From Paracoccaceae bacterium (GTDB taxonomy: Bacteria; Pseudomonadota; Alphaproteobacteria; Rhodobacterales; Rhodobacteraceae), in NCBI GenBank assembly GCA_947371955.1, contig CANBRQ010000002.1, forward strand, positions 1 to 64,000: a DNA stretch of 64,000 nucleotides, written 5' to 3'. Below the pieces are notes generated by a model. That model was not told the DNA's origin. It ran no database searches and was given only the letters and a program-made list of their open reading frames with translations. Numbering within the stretch: the stretch's first letter is position 1; the number at the start of each line of letters is the position of its first letter. The translations under genes were made by a program, and so were the position numbers. Positions 20,554 through 29,879 of this stretch are shown piece by piece.

Positions 20554-20668
20554 CGTTCTATTTCGGGGAAACCAATTCTTAAGTGCAGAAGGATATCGGT
20601 GGAGAAGCCCGAACCGAACGGGCTCCCGATCGCATGCAACAATCGTGGATTTTGACCGAGAGATGCCC

Positions 20669-20956
20669 ATGGCGCATGACTGGAAGCTTTTCGAACCTCA
20701 GGACCGGCTCGGCATCGCGCCGTCCGAACCGCTGATGTCCTTTCTGAACGGGCACGGCGCAACGCCGGTGCGAATCTCGATGCGCCATCAGAAGCGGCCG
20801 GATTCCCGGGTGCTTCAAGTCCTTCTCACCGCGTCGCGTGCCTGGAAGGGCCGCGACTTGGGGTTTGATGTGTCCGACCTGCCGCCCCGACTGGTGCAGG
20901 ACTTCATCCGTCTGGGGCTTACCGCTGAAAACACTGGCTGGAGTGGATTGAAATGA
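20669..20956 (+). CDS. STAS-like domain protein at head of chemotaxis operon
   Basis: DSRVLQVLLTASRAWKGRDLGFDVSDLPPRLVQDFIRLGL resembles STAS fold; ATGA overlap with cheY; start uncertain among 20645/20663/20669. Confidence 0.6.
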   Translation: MAHDWKLFEPQDRLGIAPSEPLMSFLNGHGATPVRISMRHQKRPDSRVLQVLLTASRAWKGRDLGFDVSDLPPRLVQDFIRLGLTAENTGWSGLK

Positions 20957-21327
20957 CGCTGAAAGTGCTTGCCATCGACGATTCCAAGACAATCCGCGAA
21001 CTTCTGCGCTCGGTCATGGAAGAGGCCGGGTTTGACTTCGAATCCGCCGTGGATGGCGTTGACGGGGTGGAACGCTATGCCGAAGTGCGGCCTGATGTGG
21101 TGATCACCGACATCAACATGCCGAACATGGACGGCTACGGCGTGATCGATGCGATCCGCAAGGGCGACATCGACAATCAGGTGCCGATCCTCGTGCTGAC
21201 CACCGAAAGCGGTGACAAGCTGAAGGCCCGCGCAAGGGATGCCGGGGCGACCGGCTGGATCGTCAAGCCGTTCGACGATGTCTCGCTGGTCTCTGTCATC
21301 CGCCGTGTGACGGGCATGGTGGCGTAA
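20953..21327 (+). CDS. cheY: Chemotaxis response regulator CheY
   Basis: Stand-alone receiver: AIDDSKTIRELL, ITDINMPNMDG, TTESG, KPFDD. Confidence 0.93.
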   Translation: MTLKVLAIDDSKTIRELLRSVMEEAGFDFESAVDGVDGVERYAEVRPDVVITDINMPNMDGYGVIDAIRKGDIDNQVPILVLTTESGDKLKARARDAGATGWIVKPFDDVSLVSVIRRVTGMVA

Positions 21328-21328
21328 G

Positions 21329-23554
21329 ATGAGCAATCCGATCCTCGACACGTTCTTCGAAGAGACGGAGGAGCTTCTCGAATCGCTCGCCGAGGGGCTG
21401 GAGTCCATGCAGGGCGCGGAGTTCGACAAGGAGACCGTCAATTCGGTCTTCCGCGCGGTCCATTCGATCAAGGGCGGGGCCGGGGCCTTCAAGATGACCG
21501 AACTGGTCAATTTCGCCCATAGTTTTGAAACCGTGATGGATGCCGTCCGGTCAGAGACCTTGGCCCTGACGCCGCAGATCATGCATACGCTGATGCGGTC
21601 GGCCGATTGTCTGGCTGATCTGGTCGATGCCGCGCGCAGTGGACGCACGATCTCGGAGGAGGTGACATCCGGCTTTTTGACCGCCCTGCAGGCCTGCCTA
21701 GGCGAAGGCGAGATCGAAGCTGTCGATGCCTGGGACAACTTCGAATTCAACGCCGTAACCCTTGATATTGAGCCAATCAGCGCCGACGCGTCCGCCGTCG
21801 CAACGGTGGAAACGCCCGTCCTTTCGGACACTGATCAGGTGCAGATCGGTTTCCAGATCGACTTCCGGCCGCATGCCGCCCTGTTCACCAATGGTCACGA
21901 GCCGGCCCTGCTGTTCGCGGCCCTTGGCGATCTGGGTCAGATGACATCGCGCATCGACATGACGAAGCTGGCCGATTGGTCCGATTTCAATCCGACTGAG
22001 CCGCGTCTGAGCTGGACCGTTGATCTGCGGACAGATGAGAGTGAAATCTCCGTGCAAGAGGTGTTCGAGTTCGTCCACGGCCTCTGCGATCTGACGATCA
22101 AACCGCTGATGGGGCCGCCGCCCTCGCCCAATGGAGAGGTTTCGACCGACAGCACAGGCGCGCCGAACAAGTCCGTCGCTGGCCCGCTGGCTATCGCCGC
22201 GATCGATATCTTTGGCCCGGAGGCCATCGCCATGCCAGCGACTCCTTTGACGGCGGCAGCGCCCGCGGTCGTTGTTGCCTCTCGGGCCAAGGCCGAACGG
22301 AACGATGACGGGTCCGATGCCAAGGCCCCAAAAGCTACGCTGCGCGTCGATCTTGACCGGGTCGATCGGCTGATCAACGCGGTAGGAGAGTTGATCATCA
22401 ATCAGGCGATGATTGCCCAGCGCCTACAGGACATGACCTCGACCCGGGATGACGATCTTGTCATGCACATCGAGGATTATCGCCTTCTGGCACGCGACAT
22501 CCAGGAAGGCGTGATGGCGATCCGCGCCCAACCGGTGAAGTCTCTATTCCAGCGTATGTCCCGCATTGTGCGCGAAGCTGCGGATGCCACGGGCAAACTG
22601 GCCGAACTGGTGACCTCCGGCGAAGGCACCGAAGTCGACAAGACGGTCGTCGAACGTCTGGCCGACCCCTTGACCCACATGATCCGCAACGCCGTGGACC
22701 ACGGGCTGGAAAGCCGCGAGGCGCGGGCCGCCGCTGGCAAGCCTCCGATGGGCACGATCCGCCTGTCAGCCTCGCACCGGTCGGGCAGCGTGATCATTAC
22801 GGTGAAGGACGACGGCGCCGGCCTGAACCGACCCAAGATTCTGGAGATCGCCAAACGCAAGGGCCTGATTGCCCCAGAAGCGGAACTGAGCGATGCAGAA
22901 GTAGACCAACTTCTGTTCATGGCCGGCTTTTCGACAGCCGCTACGATCTCCAATCTTTCGGGGCGCGGCGTCGGTTTGGACGTGGTGCGCAATGCCGTTC
23001 AGGCGCTGGGTGGCCGGATTTCGATTGCAACGACGCCGGGACAGGGCACTGAATTCACCATCATGCTGCCGCTGACGCTCGCCGTCATGGACGGAATGGT
23101 GGTGACGGTCGGCGGGCAAACATTGGTGGTGCCGATCACTTCGATCATCGAAACCATCCGCCCTTTGCCGTCCGATCTGCACCGCATCGGGACGGACGAG
23201 ACCTTGCTGTCGATCCGAGGCCGGATGATTCCAGTCGTCGATGTGGCACGCAGTCTGGGCTTTCCCTCACCGGGTACTTTGAACGCTCCTCTCTTGCTGC
23301 TGGTTGAATCAGAAAATCTCGGCGAATGCGCGCTGGTCGTCGATTCTGTTCAGGATCAGCGTCAGGTCGTCATCAAGAGCCTGGAAAGCAATTTCGGCTC
23401 AGTCCCCGGCGTTTCCGCCGCCACGGTGCTGGGCGATGGCCGGATCGCGCTGATCCTTGACCCTGATGCCATCGCGGGCGGCCGTGTCACCTCGAACTAT
23501 CCCATGACCAATATCCTCTCGAATGCGGGAAGGACCGCCTATGCAAATGCTTGA
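21329..23554 (+). CDS. cheA: Chemotaxis histidine kinase CheA
   Basis: Hpt AVHSIKGGAGAF; N-box MIRNAVDHGLE; DDGAGLN; GRGVGLDVVRNAV; CheW-like C-terminal domain. Confidence 0.96.
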   Translation: MSNPILDTFFEETEELLESLAEGLESMQGAEFDKETVNSVFRAVHSIKGGAGAFKMTELVNFAHSFETVMDAVRSETLALTPQIMHTLMRSADCLADLVDAARSGRTISEEVTSGFLTALQACLGEGEIEAVDAWDNFEFNAVTLDIEPISADASAVATVETPVLSDTDQVQIGFQIDFRPHAALFTNGHEPALLFAALGDLGQMTSRIDMTKLADWSDFNPTEPRLSWTVDLRTDESEISVQEVFEFVHGLCDLTIKPLMGPPPSPNGEVSTDSTGAPNKSVAGPLAIAAIDIFGPEAIAMPATPLTAAAPAVVVASRAKAERNDDGSDAKAPKATLRVDLDRVDRLINAVGELIINQAMIAQRLQDMTSTRDDDLVMHIEDYRLLARDIQEGVMAIRAQPVKSLFQRMSRIVREAADATGKLAELVTSGEGTEVDKTVVERLADPLTHMIRNAVDHGLESREARAAAGKPPMGTIRLSASHRSGSVIITVKDDGAGLNRPKILEIAKRKGLIAPEAELSDAEVDQLLFMAGFSTAATISNLSGRGVGLDVVRNAVQALGGRISIATTPGQGTEFTIMLPLTLAVMDGMVVTVGGQTLVVPITSIIETIRPLPSDLHRIGTDETLLSIRGRMIPVVDVARSLGFPSPGTLNAPLLLLVESENLGECALVVDSVQDQRQVVIKSLESNFGSVPGVSAATVLGDGRIALILDPDAIAGGRVTSNYPMTNILSNAGRTAYANA

Positions 23555-24005
23555 AGATACAACAAAATCCGAAGTTGAATTCGTCACCTTCTCAGCTGGC
23601 GAGCAAAGTTTCAGCATCGAGATCACGCAGGTACGCGAGATCCGGCGGTGGAGCCCGGTGACCGCCCTGCCCCATGCCCCGCATGAGGTGCTGGGTGTCA
23701 TGAACCTGCGGGGTTCGGTGATCCCGATCTACGACCTCGCCGCGCGTTTCGGTCTGGGCCAGACGCCCGAGAACCCGCGCAACGTCATCGTCGTGGCCAT
23801 GCACGGCGGCCAGACCGTTGGTCTTCTGGTCGAGGCGGTTTCCGAGATCCTGTCTGTCTCTCGTGAGCAGATTCAGGAAACCCCCGACATCCGCTCGGAA
23901 ATGGCGCGGCAAAGCATTACCGGCGTGATCCCGATCGAAAACGGCATGACGCGGGTGATCGACCTCGGCGCAGTGCTGCACCCATCGAACAGGTCAGTGG
24001 CATGA
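23541..24005 (+). CDS. cheW: Chemotaxis coupling protein CheW
   Basis: EFVTFSAGEQSFSIEITQVREIRRW, GVMNLRGSVIPIYDL, GLLVEAVSEIL; overlaps cheA 3' end. Confidence 0.94.
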   Translation: MQMLEDTTKSEVEFVTFSAGEQSFSIEITQVREIRRWSPVTALPHAPHEVLGVMNLRGSVIPIYDLAARFGLGQTPENPRNVIVVAMHGGQTVGLLVEAVSEILSVSREQIQETPDIRSEMARQSITGVIPIENGMTRVIDLGAVLHPSNRSVA

Positions 24006-24955
24006 CAGCTGCGCTTTCCTCCGTTGGTCCGCCCGATCGTGAGACGAGCGCTGCGCGCGATCGCATCCCGTTCTCCGATGCCGATTTCCAGACCATTGCC
24101 GATCTGGCGATGCGCGATTTTGGGTTGCACCTGACCACTGCAAAGCGGGACCTTGTCTATTCCAGGCTGCTCAAACGGCTGCGCAACCTTGGGCTGGAGA
24201 CGTTTCGCGACTATTGCGCGCTTCTGACAGGTCCGCAGGGGGAAGCGGAACGCACCGCCATGCTGTCCGCCCTGACGACGAACGTCACGCATTTCTTCCG
24301 CGAGGACCACCACTTCAAATTGCTGCGCGAGGTCGCGTTGCCGCCCCTGATCAAGTCCGCGCGAGAAGGCGGACGCATCCGGACCTGGTCAGCTGGCTGT
24401 TCGGCCGGACAAGAGCCCTACTCACTGGCCTTCACCGTGCTGGGCCTGTGCCCCGAGGCGGGAAAACTGAACCTGCGCATCCTTGCCACCGACGTAGATT
24501 CCGAAATCCTCGCGAAGGCCGAGGCGGGGAATTACCCTGAGGAAGAGCGCAAAGCCATTCCCGAGGCGATGCGCCGCTTCATAGAACCCGCCCAAAACGG
24601 CTTCACCATTGGCGGCGCTGCGCGCGATCTCATCACCTTCGGAAAGCTCAATCTGATTGAGAACTGGCCGATCGCTGGCCCGTTCCAGGTCATCTTCTGT
24701 CGCAATGTGGCGATCTACTTCGACAAACCGACCCAATCCCGCCTTTGGGCCCGCTTTGGCGAGTTGTTGGCGCCGGAAGGTCATCTCTGCATCGGCCACT
24801 CCGAACGCGTCGCGGGCCCGGCCGAGCTGATGTTTCGCACCGTCGGAGTAACCGCCTATCAACGCCTTGCTGGCGCCAAGACAGCCTCTTCGCCGCCAAG
24901 CGCAGCGACGGCACTCTCAAACTTTCCCAACCGCCTGGAGGGACATGAAAAATGA
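24002..24955 (+). CDS. cheR: Chemotaxis protein methyltransferase CheR
   Basis: LTTNVTHFFREDHHF, RTWSAGCSAGQEPYSLA, VIFCRNVAIYFD motifs. Confidence 0.95.
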   Translation: MTAALSSVGPPDRETSAARDRIPFSDADFQTIADLAMRDFGLHLTTAKRDLVYSRLLKRLRNLGLETFRDYCALLTGPQGEAERTAMLSALTTNVTHFFREDHHFKLLREVALPPLIKSAREGGRIRTWSAGCSAGQEPYSLAFTVLGLCPEAGKLNLRILATDVDSEILAKAEAGNYPEEERKAIPEAMRRFIEPAQNGFTIGGAARDLITFGKLNLIENWPIAGPFQVIFCRNVAIYFDKPTQSRLWARFGELLAPEGHLCIGHSERVAGPAELMFRTVGVTAYQRLAGAKTASSPPSAATALSNFPNRLEGHEK

Positions 24956-25350: not shown

Positions 25351-25728
25351 ATGACGGAAACCTTGCCGCCCTTGCTGGAGCGTACGGCCGCCATTCTAGC
25401 GGACAGCGCCCATTTGCTGCTGCAGATAGAAGACAGCATCGCCCCGCTCCTCGGCAAAGCGCCGCACAGCGGGGATACCATGGTCTCGGCGGCAAGCTTT
25501 CGGGACAATATTATATCGCTGCAAAAAATCGACCTACTGAGCCAAACTCTGGAGGATCTGTCGTTCTGGCTGGAAGATCTTGCCACCGAAACGCGGCGTC
25601 TGCCCGGTGGGTCAATCTCTGCCGAGACTGCCATGACACGGTTGCGCCTAGCCGACCTGCGCCAACGGCTGCAAGGGCAGCCGGCACTGTCCCAGAGCGA
25701 ACCGCGCCCCGAGCCTGTGCTTTTCTGA
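25351..25728 (+). CDS. Hypothetical helical protein in chemotaxis operon (candidate CheZ-like phosphatase)
   Basis: 125 aa; predicted helical; contains SLQKIDLLSQTLEDL with D-x3-Q spacing as in CheZ; sits 12 nt after cheY. Confidence 0.7.
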   Translation: MTETLPPLLERTAAILADSAHLLLQIEDSIAPLLGKAPHSGDTMVSAASFRDNIISLQKIDLLSQTLEDLSFWLEDLATETRRLPGGSISAETAMTRLRLADLRQRLQGQPALSQSEPRPEPVLF

Positions 25729-25878
25729 AGTGCCTCCGCCAAAAGCTCTGGCGGCCCGTCAGGGCCCAACATGCCGCCAGATCCTGAGCTGTTAAACCGG
25801 CCTTAAATGCCTGCCCGTAAGATGCCCGCGACGAACGTGGCATCGACCCGGAAAAGGGGTCGAACCCAGAGGGACAAC

Positions 25879-28260
25879 ATGTTGAATTTCGCATCTATTC
25901 CGCTGAAGGCCAAGCTGCCTGCGATCATCGTCGGGATCGGCCTACTGGTCGCCGTGATGGTCGGCTGCATCGGCTACATTCAGATTTCGAACCTGGCCGT
26001 CAAAAACCTTGAGGCGCGGGTCACGTCCCTCGGCAAGGAAGGCAAGCGGTCCGTTGAAGGGTTCTACGCGGTGCTGCAGCGCGACATGACGGATATGTCC
26101 AGTTCACCCGCCGTCGTGTCGGGCTATCGGCGACTATTGATGGGGTGGAAGTCCAACGCAACCGATCCTTCTGGCACGCTGGTCGCGGACTACATCACCA
26201 ACAATCCCAAACCGCTCGGCCATCGCAAGGACTTCGATCGACCGGATGTAAGCAATGTCTACAACCAGCAACATAGTGAGTTTCATCCGGCCTTCCGCCG
26301 CTGGACCGAATTGCACGCATATTACGACTTCTTCCTGATCGATCTTGATGGCAACGTCATATACACTGTCATGAAAGAGACCGATTTCGCCAGCAATCTG
26401 CTCACAGGGCCGGATAAGACCGGCCCTCTGGCGCAAGTTTATGCCCAGGCCAAGGCGGATACCAAGGGCGACGTCCACTATTCCGATTTTGCGCCCTACG
26501 GACCCTCCGCCGGTGCGCCGGCCGCCTTCGTCGCCCGGGCCATTCTCGACGACAAGGGGGCCGTCATAGGGGTCATGGCCATTCAAATGTCTGACGCATT
26601 GCTGAACGGAACCGTCGACAACAACAGCAACCTCGGAGAGACCGGAGAACTGCTCATCCTGTCCGCTGATGGGCGCGCCCGCACCGCCTCGCGCTTTCCG
26701 TCAGGCTTCCGGATTCTTGATTCCCTCCCGGTTCTGGGCGGGTTGCTTTCCAAGGACCCCAGTGAACTCGCCATCCATCACAACGTGAAACTCAGCGATG
26801 GCAATATGGGCACAGCCTTGACCACGCGTCTTGATCTGCCTGGGCTGGATTGGCACGCAGTTGTCGAGATTGACGACAGTGAGGCCTATGCGCCGGTGAT
26901 GGCCGCCGTGCAGCTTCTGATGATCGGCACGCTGGTTGCGTCCGTCGTCGCGGCACTCTTGGGCGTCTGGATTGCGCGCGGCGTGATCAAGCCAATCGTG
27001 CGTGTATCCGGGGCGATCCGAACCATCGCTGAGGGTGATCTGAGGGCAATCATCGTCGATGCGGACCGCAACGACGAAGTGGGCGATATTGGCAAATCGC
27101 TCGACGCCCTGCGGGAGAAGCTGGGTCTGTCAGCCGGGCTGGAGCAAGAGCGTCATCAGGCCTCTGACGCCCAGCGCAACATTGTGGACGCCCTGACCGT
27201 CGGATTGCGGGAATTGTCCTCAGGGAATCTGACACAATCGATCCAAGCGGAGTTCGGCGATCACGAAACTCTGCGCCAAGACTTCAACGAAACAGTGGAG
27301 CGTTTGTCAGAGACGATCTCGATGGTGGTCGAGACGTCCGAAAGCATCCGCTCGCGTGCCCGCGAAATCAGTCAGTCGTCCGAAGACCTGTCGACGCGAA
27401 CCGAAACCCAGGCCGCCACGCTGGAGGAAACCGCTGCGGCACTGGATGAATTAACGGCTTCGATTCGCTCTGCCGCCGAAGGGGCGAAGGAGGTGGAGGG
27501 TATTGTGCGGTCCGCACGGAACGAGGCCGAGGAAAGCGGAAAGGTTGTTCAGGGCGCCGTCAGTGCCATGACCGAGATTGAACGGTCGTCGGACCAGATC
27601 TCGCAAATCATCGGAGTCATTGACGACATCGCCTTCCAGACCAATCTTCTCGCATTGAACGCCGGGGTGGAGGCAGCGAGAGCCGGCGATGCAGGCAAGG
27701 GCTTTGCGGTCGTGGCTTCTGAAGTGCGGGCTCTGGCCCAGAGGTCCTCGGCGGCTGCAAAGGAAATCAAGGCGCTGATCAGTGCCTCGACCCAGCACGT
27801 CGGGCGCGGTGTGGAACAGGTTGGCCGGGCAGGCGATGCGCTTGCCAATATTGTCAATCGGGTCGGGCATATCTCGACTCTGGTGTCGAACATCGCGGCA
27901 GCGGCGACCGAACAATCCACCGGACTGGCCGAAATCAACGTCGGGGTAGCCCAACTGGATCAAGTCACCCAGCAAAACGCCGCGATGGTCGAGGAATCCA
28001 CGGCGGCGAGCCAGTCGCTCAGCCAGGAAGCCGCCGGCCTGTCGGAACTGGTGGCGCAGTTCAAGTTGCGCAAGTTCACCTCGGGCAATGCCGCTCACGC
28101 CAGCCGACCCGTGGTCCACCCCCCTGCCAAGCGACGGCCGAAGCGCGAATCCGACATGCCATCGGAAGCCAGGGCCACTCCCAGCCGGGAGGTCATGCAA
28201 GATGTACCGCCCCCGCGGGCACAGGCCACCACGGCCAAGGGAAAATGGCAGGACTACTGA
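25879..28260 (+). CDS. Methyl-accepting chemotaxis protein (Cache-like periplasmic sensor, HAMP, MCP signalling domain)
   Basis: TM1 [24 protein letters not shown], hairpin [47 protein letters not shown]-terminus KWQDY. Confidence 0.95.
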
Positions 28261-28317
28261 CCTAATTGATTCTTGCTGGGCCGCAAGGCTCTCTATGCCC
28301 CTCAACAGGAGAAAGCT

Positions 28318-29349
28318 GTGCCAGACATCACGGTCATTGTCGCCGGTGGAAATCCCGCAATGCGGATCAAGCTGGTCAGGGCGCTCGATGCGGCTCCAGG
28401 GTTTAAAGTGATCAGTCAGGCCTCGGATCTGCCAGCAACCTACACCTCTGCCGAAGCGATGGAGCCGGACGTAGTCCTGGTCTCACGCGAACTGACCTTG
28501 CTGCCCGAGTTCAGCCTGATGCGGTCGTTGTTTCGTGCCTTGGAAGCGCGCTGGATTCCCGTGGTCCATCAAGGATTGCTCGGCGCGGCACCGCAAGCGG
28601 CGGCAACAGCGGAAACGGCGGGGGATTTTCCCGCCGTTGACACCGCGCAGTCCGGCGATGTCATCCGTGCTCAAATTTCGGCCGCAATGCGGCAAACGCT
28701 GGCCCGCAAGCCAACAGTTGTTGCGGCCCCGATCCGGACTCCGGTTTCGCTGAAATCCGGCAAGCTGATCCTGCTCGGCGCCTCAACCGGGGGTGTGGAT
28801 GCGTTGCTGGCTGTCTTGTCTGCGATGCCGGCCGATTGCCCGCCGATTGCGGTGGTGCAGCACACCGGGCAGGGGTTCAGCGAAAGTCTGATCCGCCTGC
28901 TGGATCGCCGCTGCGCCGTAACGGTCGAAGCGGCTCAGGACGGGATGGAACTGCGGCCTGGACGCGTTTGTGTGGCTGCCGGTTGCCCGGGTCACATCCG
29001 GTTGAAGTCGAACAAGCCATACCGGATCACCGTGGAACCAGGGCCGCTGATTTCAGGCCATCTGCCTTCGGTCGACGCGCTGTTCCGTTCTGCCGTGTCG
29101 TCGGGCGCGAATGTGGTAGCGGCGCTTTTGACCGGGATGGGACGCGATGGAGCGGAGGGGCTGCTCGCCCTGCGCAACGCGGGGGCGGCGACCATCGGTC
29201 AGGACGAAAGTTCCAGCGTTGTCTACGGCATGCCCCGCGCAGCCTGGGAGTTGGGTGCGGTACGGCAACAATTGCCCTTGGGTGAAATTGCGGGGGCCAT
29301 CTTGAGGGCCTGCGCGCAGGGTTCGGAAGAAGGAAGGGTGGCATCGTGA
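28318..29349 (+). CDS. cheB: Chemotaxis protein-glutamate methylesterase CheB with degenerate receiver domain
   Basis: Methylesterase motifs ILLGASTGGVDALL, AVVQHTGQGFSESLI, LTGMGRDGAEGLLALRNAGAATIGQDESSSVVYGMPRAA; GTG start with aggaga RBS. Confidence 0.9.
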   Translation: MPDITVIVAGGNPAMRIKLVRALDAAPGFKVISQASDLPATYTSAEAMEPDVVLVSRELTLLPEFSLMRSLFRALEARWIPVVHQGLLGAAPQAAATAETAGDFPAVDTAQSGDVIRAQISAAMRQTLARKPTVVAAPIRTPVSLKSGKLILLGASTGGVDALLAVLSAMPADCPPIAVVQHTGQGFSESLIRLLDRRCAVTVEAAQDGMELRPGRVCVAAGCPGHIRLKSNKPYRITVEPGPLISGHLPSVDALFRSAVSSGANVVAALLTGMGRDGAEGLLALRNAGAATIGQDESSSVVYGMPRAAWELGAVRQQLPLGEIAGAILRACAQGSEEGRVAS

Positions 29350-29879
29350 CCGTAATCACTGAAGCAAAACTGGTCTACGTGGTGCAAGGCACCTATTACG
29401 TCTCGGCGCATCCTGAAGTGACAATGTCGACGGTCCTAGGCTCTTGCATATCCGTCTGCCTCTTTGACCCGGTGGCCGCGATCGGCGGCATGAACCACTT
29501 CCTGTTGCCCGCCGGACGAGGAACCGAATCGGGCCACATCCGGTTTGGCGTCAATGCCATGGAAAAGCTGATCAACGAGTTGCTGAAATCGGGCGCAAGC
29601 AAGGCACGGCTGCAGGCCAAGCTGTTCGGCGGCGCACGAATGTCGGCGACGCTGACCGACATCGGGCGGCAGAATGCGGCCTTCGCCCACAGCTTTCTGT
29701 CCAATGAAGGGATTCCCAACGCGTCTGAAAGCGTGGGTGGCACTTTGGCCAGGCGGGTCATCTTCCGGCCGACGACGGGTCAGGTCAAGCTGCTGTTCGT
29801 GCAAAACGACGAGGTTGAACTCAATGAGTTGCCGCCGCCGCGTCCGCAACCGCAACCGGGTTCCGTCGTCATGTTCTAG
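29346..29879 (+). CDS. cheD: Chemoreceptor glutamine deamidase CheD
   Basis: STVLGSCISVCLFD, GGMNHFLLP, KLFGGARM; GTG start overlapping cheB stop. Confidence 0.93.
   Translation: MTVITEAKLVYVVQGTYYVSAHPEVTMSTVLGSCISVCLFDPVAAIGGMNHFLLPAGRGTESGHIRFGVNAMEKLINELLKSGASKARLQAKLFGGARMSATLTDIGRQNAAFAHSFLSNEGIPNASESVGGTLARRVIFRPTTGQVKLLFVQNDEVELNELPPPRPQPQPGSVVMF

Follow-up and report, generated by a model that had tools for sequence, protein, structure and literature searches.

The CheT-like gene and its che cluster

The window analysed here, the whole 64,000-nucleotide stretch of contig CANBRQ010000002.1 from a Paracoccaceae bacterium, carries a chemotaxis (che) cluster with the following features.

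20645 to 20956, + strand: cheS-like gene encoding a STAS-domain protein, the first gene of the cluster (PF13466, STAS_2, E 1.9e-7, over the cut-off)
20953 to 21327, + strand: cheY1, counterpart of the Sinorhizobium (S.) meliloti sink CheY1 (54.5% identity, same place before cheA) and likely substrate of the CheT-like protein
21329 to 23554, + strand: cheA (Hpt, H-kinase_dim, HATPase_c and CheW domains)
23523 to 24005, + strand: cheW (PF01584)
24002 to 24955, + strand: cheR (PF01739, PF03705), a possible second binding partner, given the CheT-CheR binding reported for S. meliloti (PMC12654446)
24952 to 25338, + strand: cheY2 (PF00072; 40.6% identical to S. meliloti CheY2)
25351 to 25728, + strand: cheT-like gene, 125 amino acids, with D61-x-x-x-Q65, a predicted helical hairpin and a conserved C-terminal tail (identified by its open reading frame, homology to CheT and invariant Q58, D61 and Q65)
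25522 to 25545, + strand: codons of the proposed catalytic segment, Q58-K-I-D61-L-L-S-Q65
25711 to 25725, + strand: codons of E-P-V-L-F, the C-terminal tail (family consensus G-[DE]-[VI]-[DE]-L-F-COOH)
25807 to 28260, + strand: gene for a methyl-accepting chemotaxis protein (MCP) ending in KWQDY (PF00015, HAMP)
28273 to 29349, + strand: cheB, methylesterase domain (PF01339 only)
29346 to 29879, + strand: cheD (PF03975), with a tail, GSVVMF, resembling that of the CheT-like protein

The cheS-like gene has a match in the STAS gene of Ruegeria TM1040 and shares 4 nt with the start of cheY1. Each of the two window CheY proteins has its S. meliloti namesake as its best match. In gene content (cheS-like STAS, cheY1, cheA, cheW, cheR, cheY2, cheT, mcp, cheB and cheD) the cluster equals that of S. 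meliloti; the S. meliloti, Ruegeria and Phaeobacter clusters used for comparison were reached with CheD as query. The main S. meliloti che cluster, which includes fliF, was taken from strain USDA1021 (locus L099, NZ_CP021802.1, 551676 to 568128), where the record is labelled as plasmid psymB, probably through mislabelling or a fusion of replicons. Pfam detected no receiver domain in the window CheB, and CheB of Ruegeria and Phaeobacter is annotated likewise. The end of the MCP, KWQDY, conforms to the CheR/CheB-binding pentapeptide pattern x-[HFYW]-x-x-[HFYW], for which the host genome's other complete MCP termini showed no clear fit. Despite the che genes, FliM (PF02154) had no match in the host genome, which may reflect genome incompleteness or a divergent FliM.

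The cheT-like open reading frame (ORF) begins with an ATG at 25351, closely preceded by a GGGGG purine run and 12 nt past the cheY2 stop, and it is intact; coordinates and translation agree with the first-pass annotation, which had placed a 125-aa product here just past an intact cheY2, and the ORF is real. The claim that the product has no recognised domain holds for Pfam, in which the protein had no match at E values up to 10, and the NCBIfam collection gave a single weak match, to CheT (E 0.003). Compared with its ortholog at locus L011, the gene has a dN/dS of 0.11 (NG86) or 0.16 (YN00), and it is under strong purifying selection.

Distribution of the family and conservation of the DxxxQ motif

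With the window protein as the sole query, matches were found in 8 of 101 genomes of relatives, including copies that are 32 to 36% identical to it, and a nine-sequence profile matched in 84 of 397 genomes of the host's family. A tblastn search of plasmids with the window protein and two relatives gave no matches. In every locus examined except L029, cheR-cheY2 lies directly 5' of the gene of this family (T), the order cheW-cheR-cheY2-T is kept in nearly all loci, and the 3' neighbour is either an MCP gene or cheB-cheD. When the class was searched with a 30-sequence profile, relatives appeared in other families, several of them adjoining cheD in the order cheB-cheY-cheD-T, which is also the rhizobial order. 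The class-level matches L049, L050 and L051, which had no che genes alongside, looked like chance and were discarded.

The D-x-x-x-Q pair with CheZ spacing that had been proposed as catalytic is present, and D61-L-L-S-Q65 is the sole DxxxQ in the window protein. Taken alone, this presence is near chance, as residue shuffles of the protein contain DxxxQ in 37% of cases and QxxDxxxQ in 2%. The motif is lifted above chance by its conservation: Q58, D61 and Q65, together with L107, are invariant in an alignment of 36 distinct Rhodobacteraceae sequences (36/36), most of which are only 20 to 40% identical to the window protein. Conservation of the Asp and Gln among orthologs had been chosen beforehand as a point on which the proposal could fall, and it came through intact. 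The same data bear on the possibility that the ORF is non-functional or arose by chance, an idea to which the shuffling frequency of 37% and the missing Pfam domain might lend some colour; the low dN/dS, a reading frame that stays open and syntenic in distant genera and the invariant motif refute it and leave it with a vanishingly small probability.

AlphaFold2, run with four sequences, predicted helices at residues 5-35, 47-83, 91-97 and 100-107, with a mean pLDDT of 63 and a pTM of 0.43. In this low-confidence model D61 and Q65 both lie on the long second helix (47-83). A long helical hairpin, the other feature on which the proposal had been staked in advance, is thus predicted, and the description of the protein as all-helical agrees with the helices to the extent that a model of such low confidence can be followed. 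A Foldseek search of the PDB with this model, which is too uncertain for the purpose, returned no match below E 0.001 and no CheZ-like fold; in CheZ, the long hairpins pair into a dimeric four-helix bundle. Designed coiled coils were the only PDB entries found by a sequence search with the family profile, and they were set aside.

Relationship to CheT and comparison with CheZ

The only NCBIfam match of the window protein was NF047973 (CheT), for which its 17.6 bits miss the naming cut-off of 200; this narrow equivalog model serves to name close orthologs of the S. meliloti protein, and the claim made here is limited to the wider CheT family. NF047973 also matches five of nine relatives (best E 6.9e-8), and further relatives reach 1.6e-8. 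In the opposite direction, profile A4, which was built from 30 Rhodobacteraceae sequences, none of them rhizobial, finds the S. meliloti protein encoded between cheD and fliF with 49.9 bits, and the cheD-fliF ORF of S. meliloti USDA1021 scores 226.5 bits against NF047973, over the cut-off of 200. Aligned by hhalign with CheT-like proteins of another alphaproteobacterial order, which had been collected with NF047973, A4 gave a probability of 99.4% (E 6e-22). On the strength of the A4 match, the NF047973 match and this profile alignment, the window protein is placed in the wide CheT family and is, by its sequence, a diverged Rhodobacteraceae version of CheT that extends a known family. The comparison shows that the CheT family, with its invariant Q-x-x-D-x-x-x-Q, spans the alphaproteobacteria and is not confined to rhizobia.

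The likeness to S. meliloti CheT includes homology over the whole length, the same size, an aligned LQ-x-x-D-x-x-x-Q (LQKIDLLSQ in the window, LQGIDLAVQ in S. meliloti), an aromatic C-terminal tail (GDFEAF in S. meliloti) and a cluster with cheS, two cheY genes and cheD and without CheZ. The two differ in gene position, as the window gene lies between cheY2 and mcp/cheB whereas the S. meliloti gene lies 3' of cheD. They also differ in sequence, with 28 of 110 aligned residues identical (approximately 25%), well under what the NCBIfam name requires, and for the window protein the activity is predicted.

The absence of cheZ, cheC and cheX noted in the first-pass annotation extends to the whole host genome, as far as an assembly of 92% completeness in 353 contigs can show it, where CheZ (PF04344), CheC (PF04509) and CheX (PF13690) had no match; the CheD noted at the same time is also there. 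CheZ was found in none of the 397 genomes of the host's family and in 70 of 190 genomes across the class. CheC, CheX and FliY phosphatases have a different fold and an E-x-x-N motif; what they have in common with the window protein is the task proposed for it, removal of the phosphate from CheY. In Pfam the window protein itself matches none of PF04344, PF04509 and PF13690.

The kinship originally proposed, with the protein as a short and strongly diverged CheZ, is not supported. A shrunken but true CheZ would account for a D-x-x-x-Q spaced like that of CheZ on what is predicted to be a long helix, for the hairpin in the model, for a genome without CheZ and for a conserved, acidic and hydrophobic C-terminal peptide past a linker, as CheZ also has. 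Yet the protein has no Pfam CheZ match, and its family aligned with 20 alphaproteobacterial CheZ sequences at an hhalign probability of 0.2% (E 0.31), so that homology to CheZ is undetectable in sequence while that to CheT is strong. All 20 of these CheZ proteins carry F-Q-D-[LIV]-[TS]-G-Q, in contrast to Q-K-I-D-L-L-S-Q in the window protein and Q-x-x-D-[LI]-[LV]-x-Q in its family, and CheZ exceeds 200 amino acids compared with 125 here. A diverged CheZ is accordingly quite improbable, and the sequence comparisons place the protein in the CheT family, already known, rather than making it a new kind of CheZ. The other half of the original reading, a phosphatase that uses the same chemistry as CheZ, is plausible and the preferred reading in view of the invariant Asp and Gln, the modelled hairpin and the homology to CheT.

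Proposed function and the C-terminal tail

In S. meliloti, CheT has recently been shown to help end the CheY signal where CheZ is missing; it has a DXXXQ motif, enhances the dephosphorylation of just one of the two CheY proteins and forms a complex with CheR (Agbekudzi et al. 2024, doi 10.1111/mmi.15303, as summarized in an Agrobacterium review, PMC12654446). Based on this precedent and on the homology, invariant motif and che context established above, we infer that Rhodobacteraceae CheT is probably a DxxxQ CheY~P phosphatase, with CheY1~P as its likeliest substrate, that may also bind CheR. The second helix of the hairpin would present D61 and Q65 to phosphorylated CheY. By analogy with CheZ, Gln would orient the water for attack while Asp would touch the active site of CheY, and the acyl phosphate would be hydrolysed faster. 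The S. meliloti substrate is reported to be the sink CheY1, with decay of CheY1~P sped up, that of CheY2~P unaffected and the effect reportedly modest. Since the CheY encoded at 20953 is the syntenic counterpart of this sink CheY1, it is most likely the substrate, rather than the adjacent CheY encoded at 24952; draining the phosphate sink CheY1~P would then help signal termination. Binding to CheR, as for S. meliloti CheT, is a further possible activity.

Alternatively, CheT could act mainly as a scaffold that binds CheR, and perhaps CheY, and couples adaptation to signalling, with DxxxQ serving as a CheY-binding face and contributing little catalysis. The CheT-CheR complex reported for S. meliloti (PMC12654446), the adjacency of cheT to cheR-cheY2 in nearly all loci and the family-wide conservation of the tail would fit such a role. 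It is considered unlikely, though, since catalysis would call for just what is seen, namely that precisely D and Q, spaced as in CheZ, stay invariant among highly divergent sequences, and S. meliloti CheT is itself reported to speed CheY1~P decay. The assignment to CheT provides a name and a testable function for genes that in Rhodobacterales are called hypothetical or have no Pfam family, such as those encoding WP_011536822.1 of Ruegeria sp. TM1040 and WP_014881834.1 of Phaeobacter inhibens. It also suggests a way in which chemotaxis signals could be terminated in a large set of CheZ-less bacteria from marine and fresh waters.

Past an unconserved linker, the proteins of the family end in F in 33 of 36 sequences, preceded by L in 27 of 36. 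CheD proteins of the same clusters end similarly (GDVELF, GAIELF; SSIEFF in S. meliloti CheD), and this CheD tail was seen in loci L009, L059, L063, L099, L107 and L112, reaching as far as Azospirillum and Vibrio. Lineages that possess CheZ likewise have the tail on their CheD, so it is not exclusive to CheT; as far as these protein ends indicate, it is a general CheD feature which CheT shares. In a limited search of the literature, no account of a tail shared by CheT and CheD turned up, and it is apparently a new detail.

The shared tail suggests a common docking partner for CheT and CheD, for example the pocket in which CheR binds pentapeptides, or a surface on CheY. It is conceivable, though somewhat doubtful, that both proteins use the same docking tail (G-[DE]-[VIL]-[DE]-L-F-COOH on a flexible linker) to compete for, or be gathered by, one partner, in which case signal termination and receptor adaptation would be coupled via a single peptide-binding site. 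Mimicry by the CheT tail of the CheR-binding pentapeptide (NWETF type) was also considered, prompted by the terminal NWEVL of the relative at L063 and by the CheR binding of S. meliloti CheT (PMC12654446); a further reading considered was mimicry of the CheY-binding CheZ tail (SQDDIDALF type). In this tail, common to CheT and CheD, there is a tangible starting point for studying how CheT is linked to CheR, as has been reported.

Some members of the T family, in Phaeobacter, Novosphingobium and Sphingomonas, are missing the tail. Short unannotated proteins with Q-x-x-D-x-x-x-Q are encoded 3' of cheW or cheB in che clusters of Sphingomonas (L106, 10470 to 10736) and Novosphingobium (L111, 4381 to 4656), and these are probably very diverged CheT proteins without the tail. 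In Acetobacter persici, a hypothetical protein encoded 3' of cheD (WP_157763167.1; L103, 8580 to 8960) is CheT-like, with LQGMDVGTQ and the tail GVIDFF.
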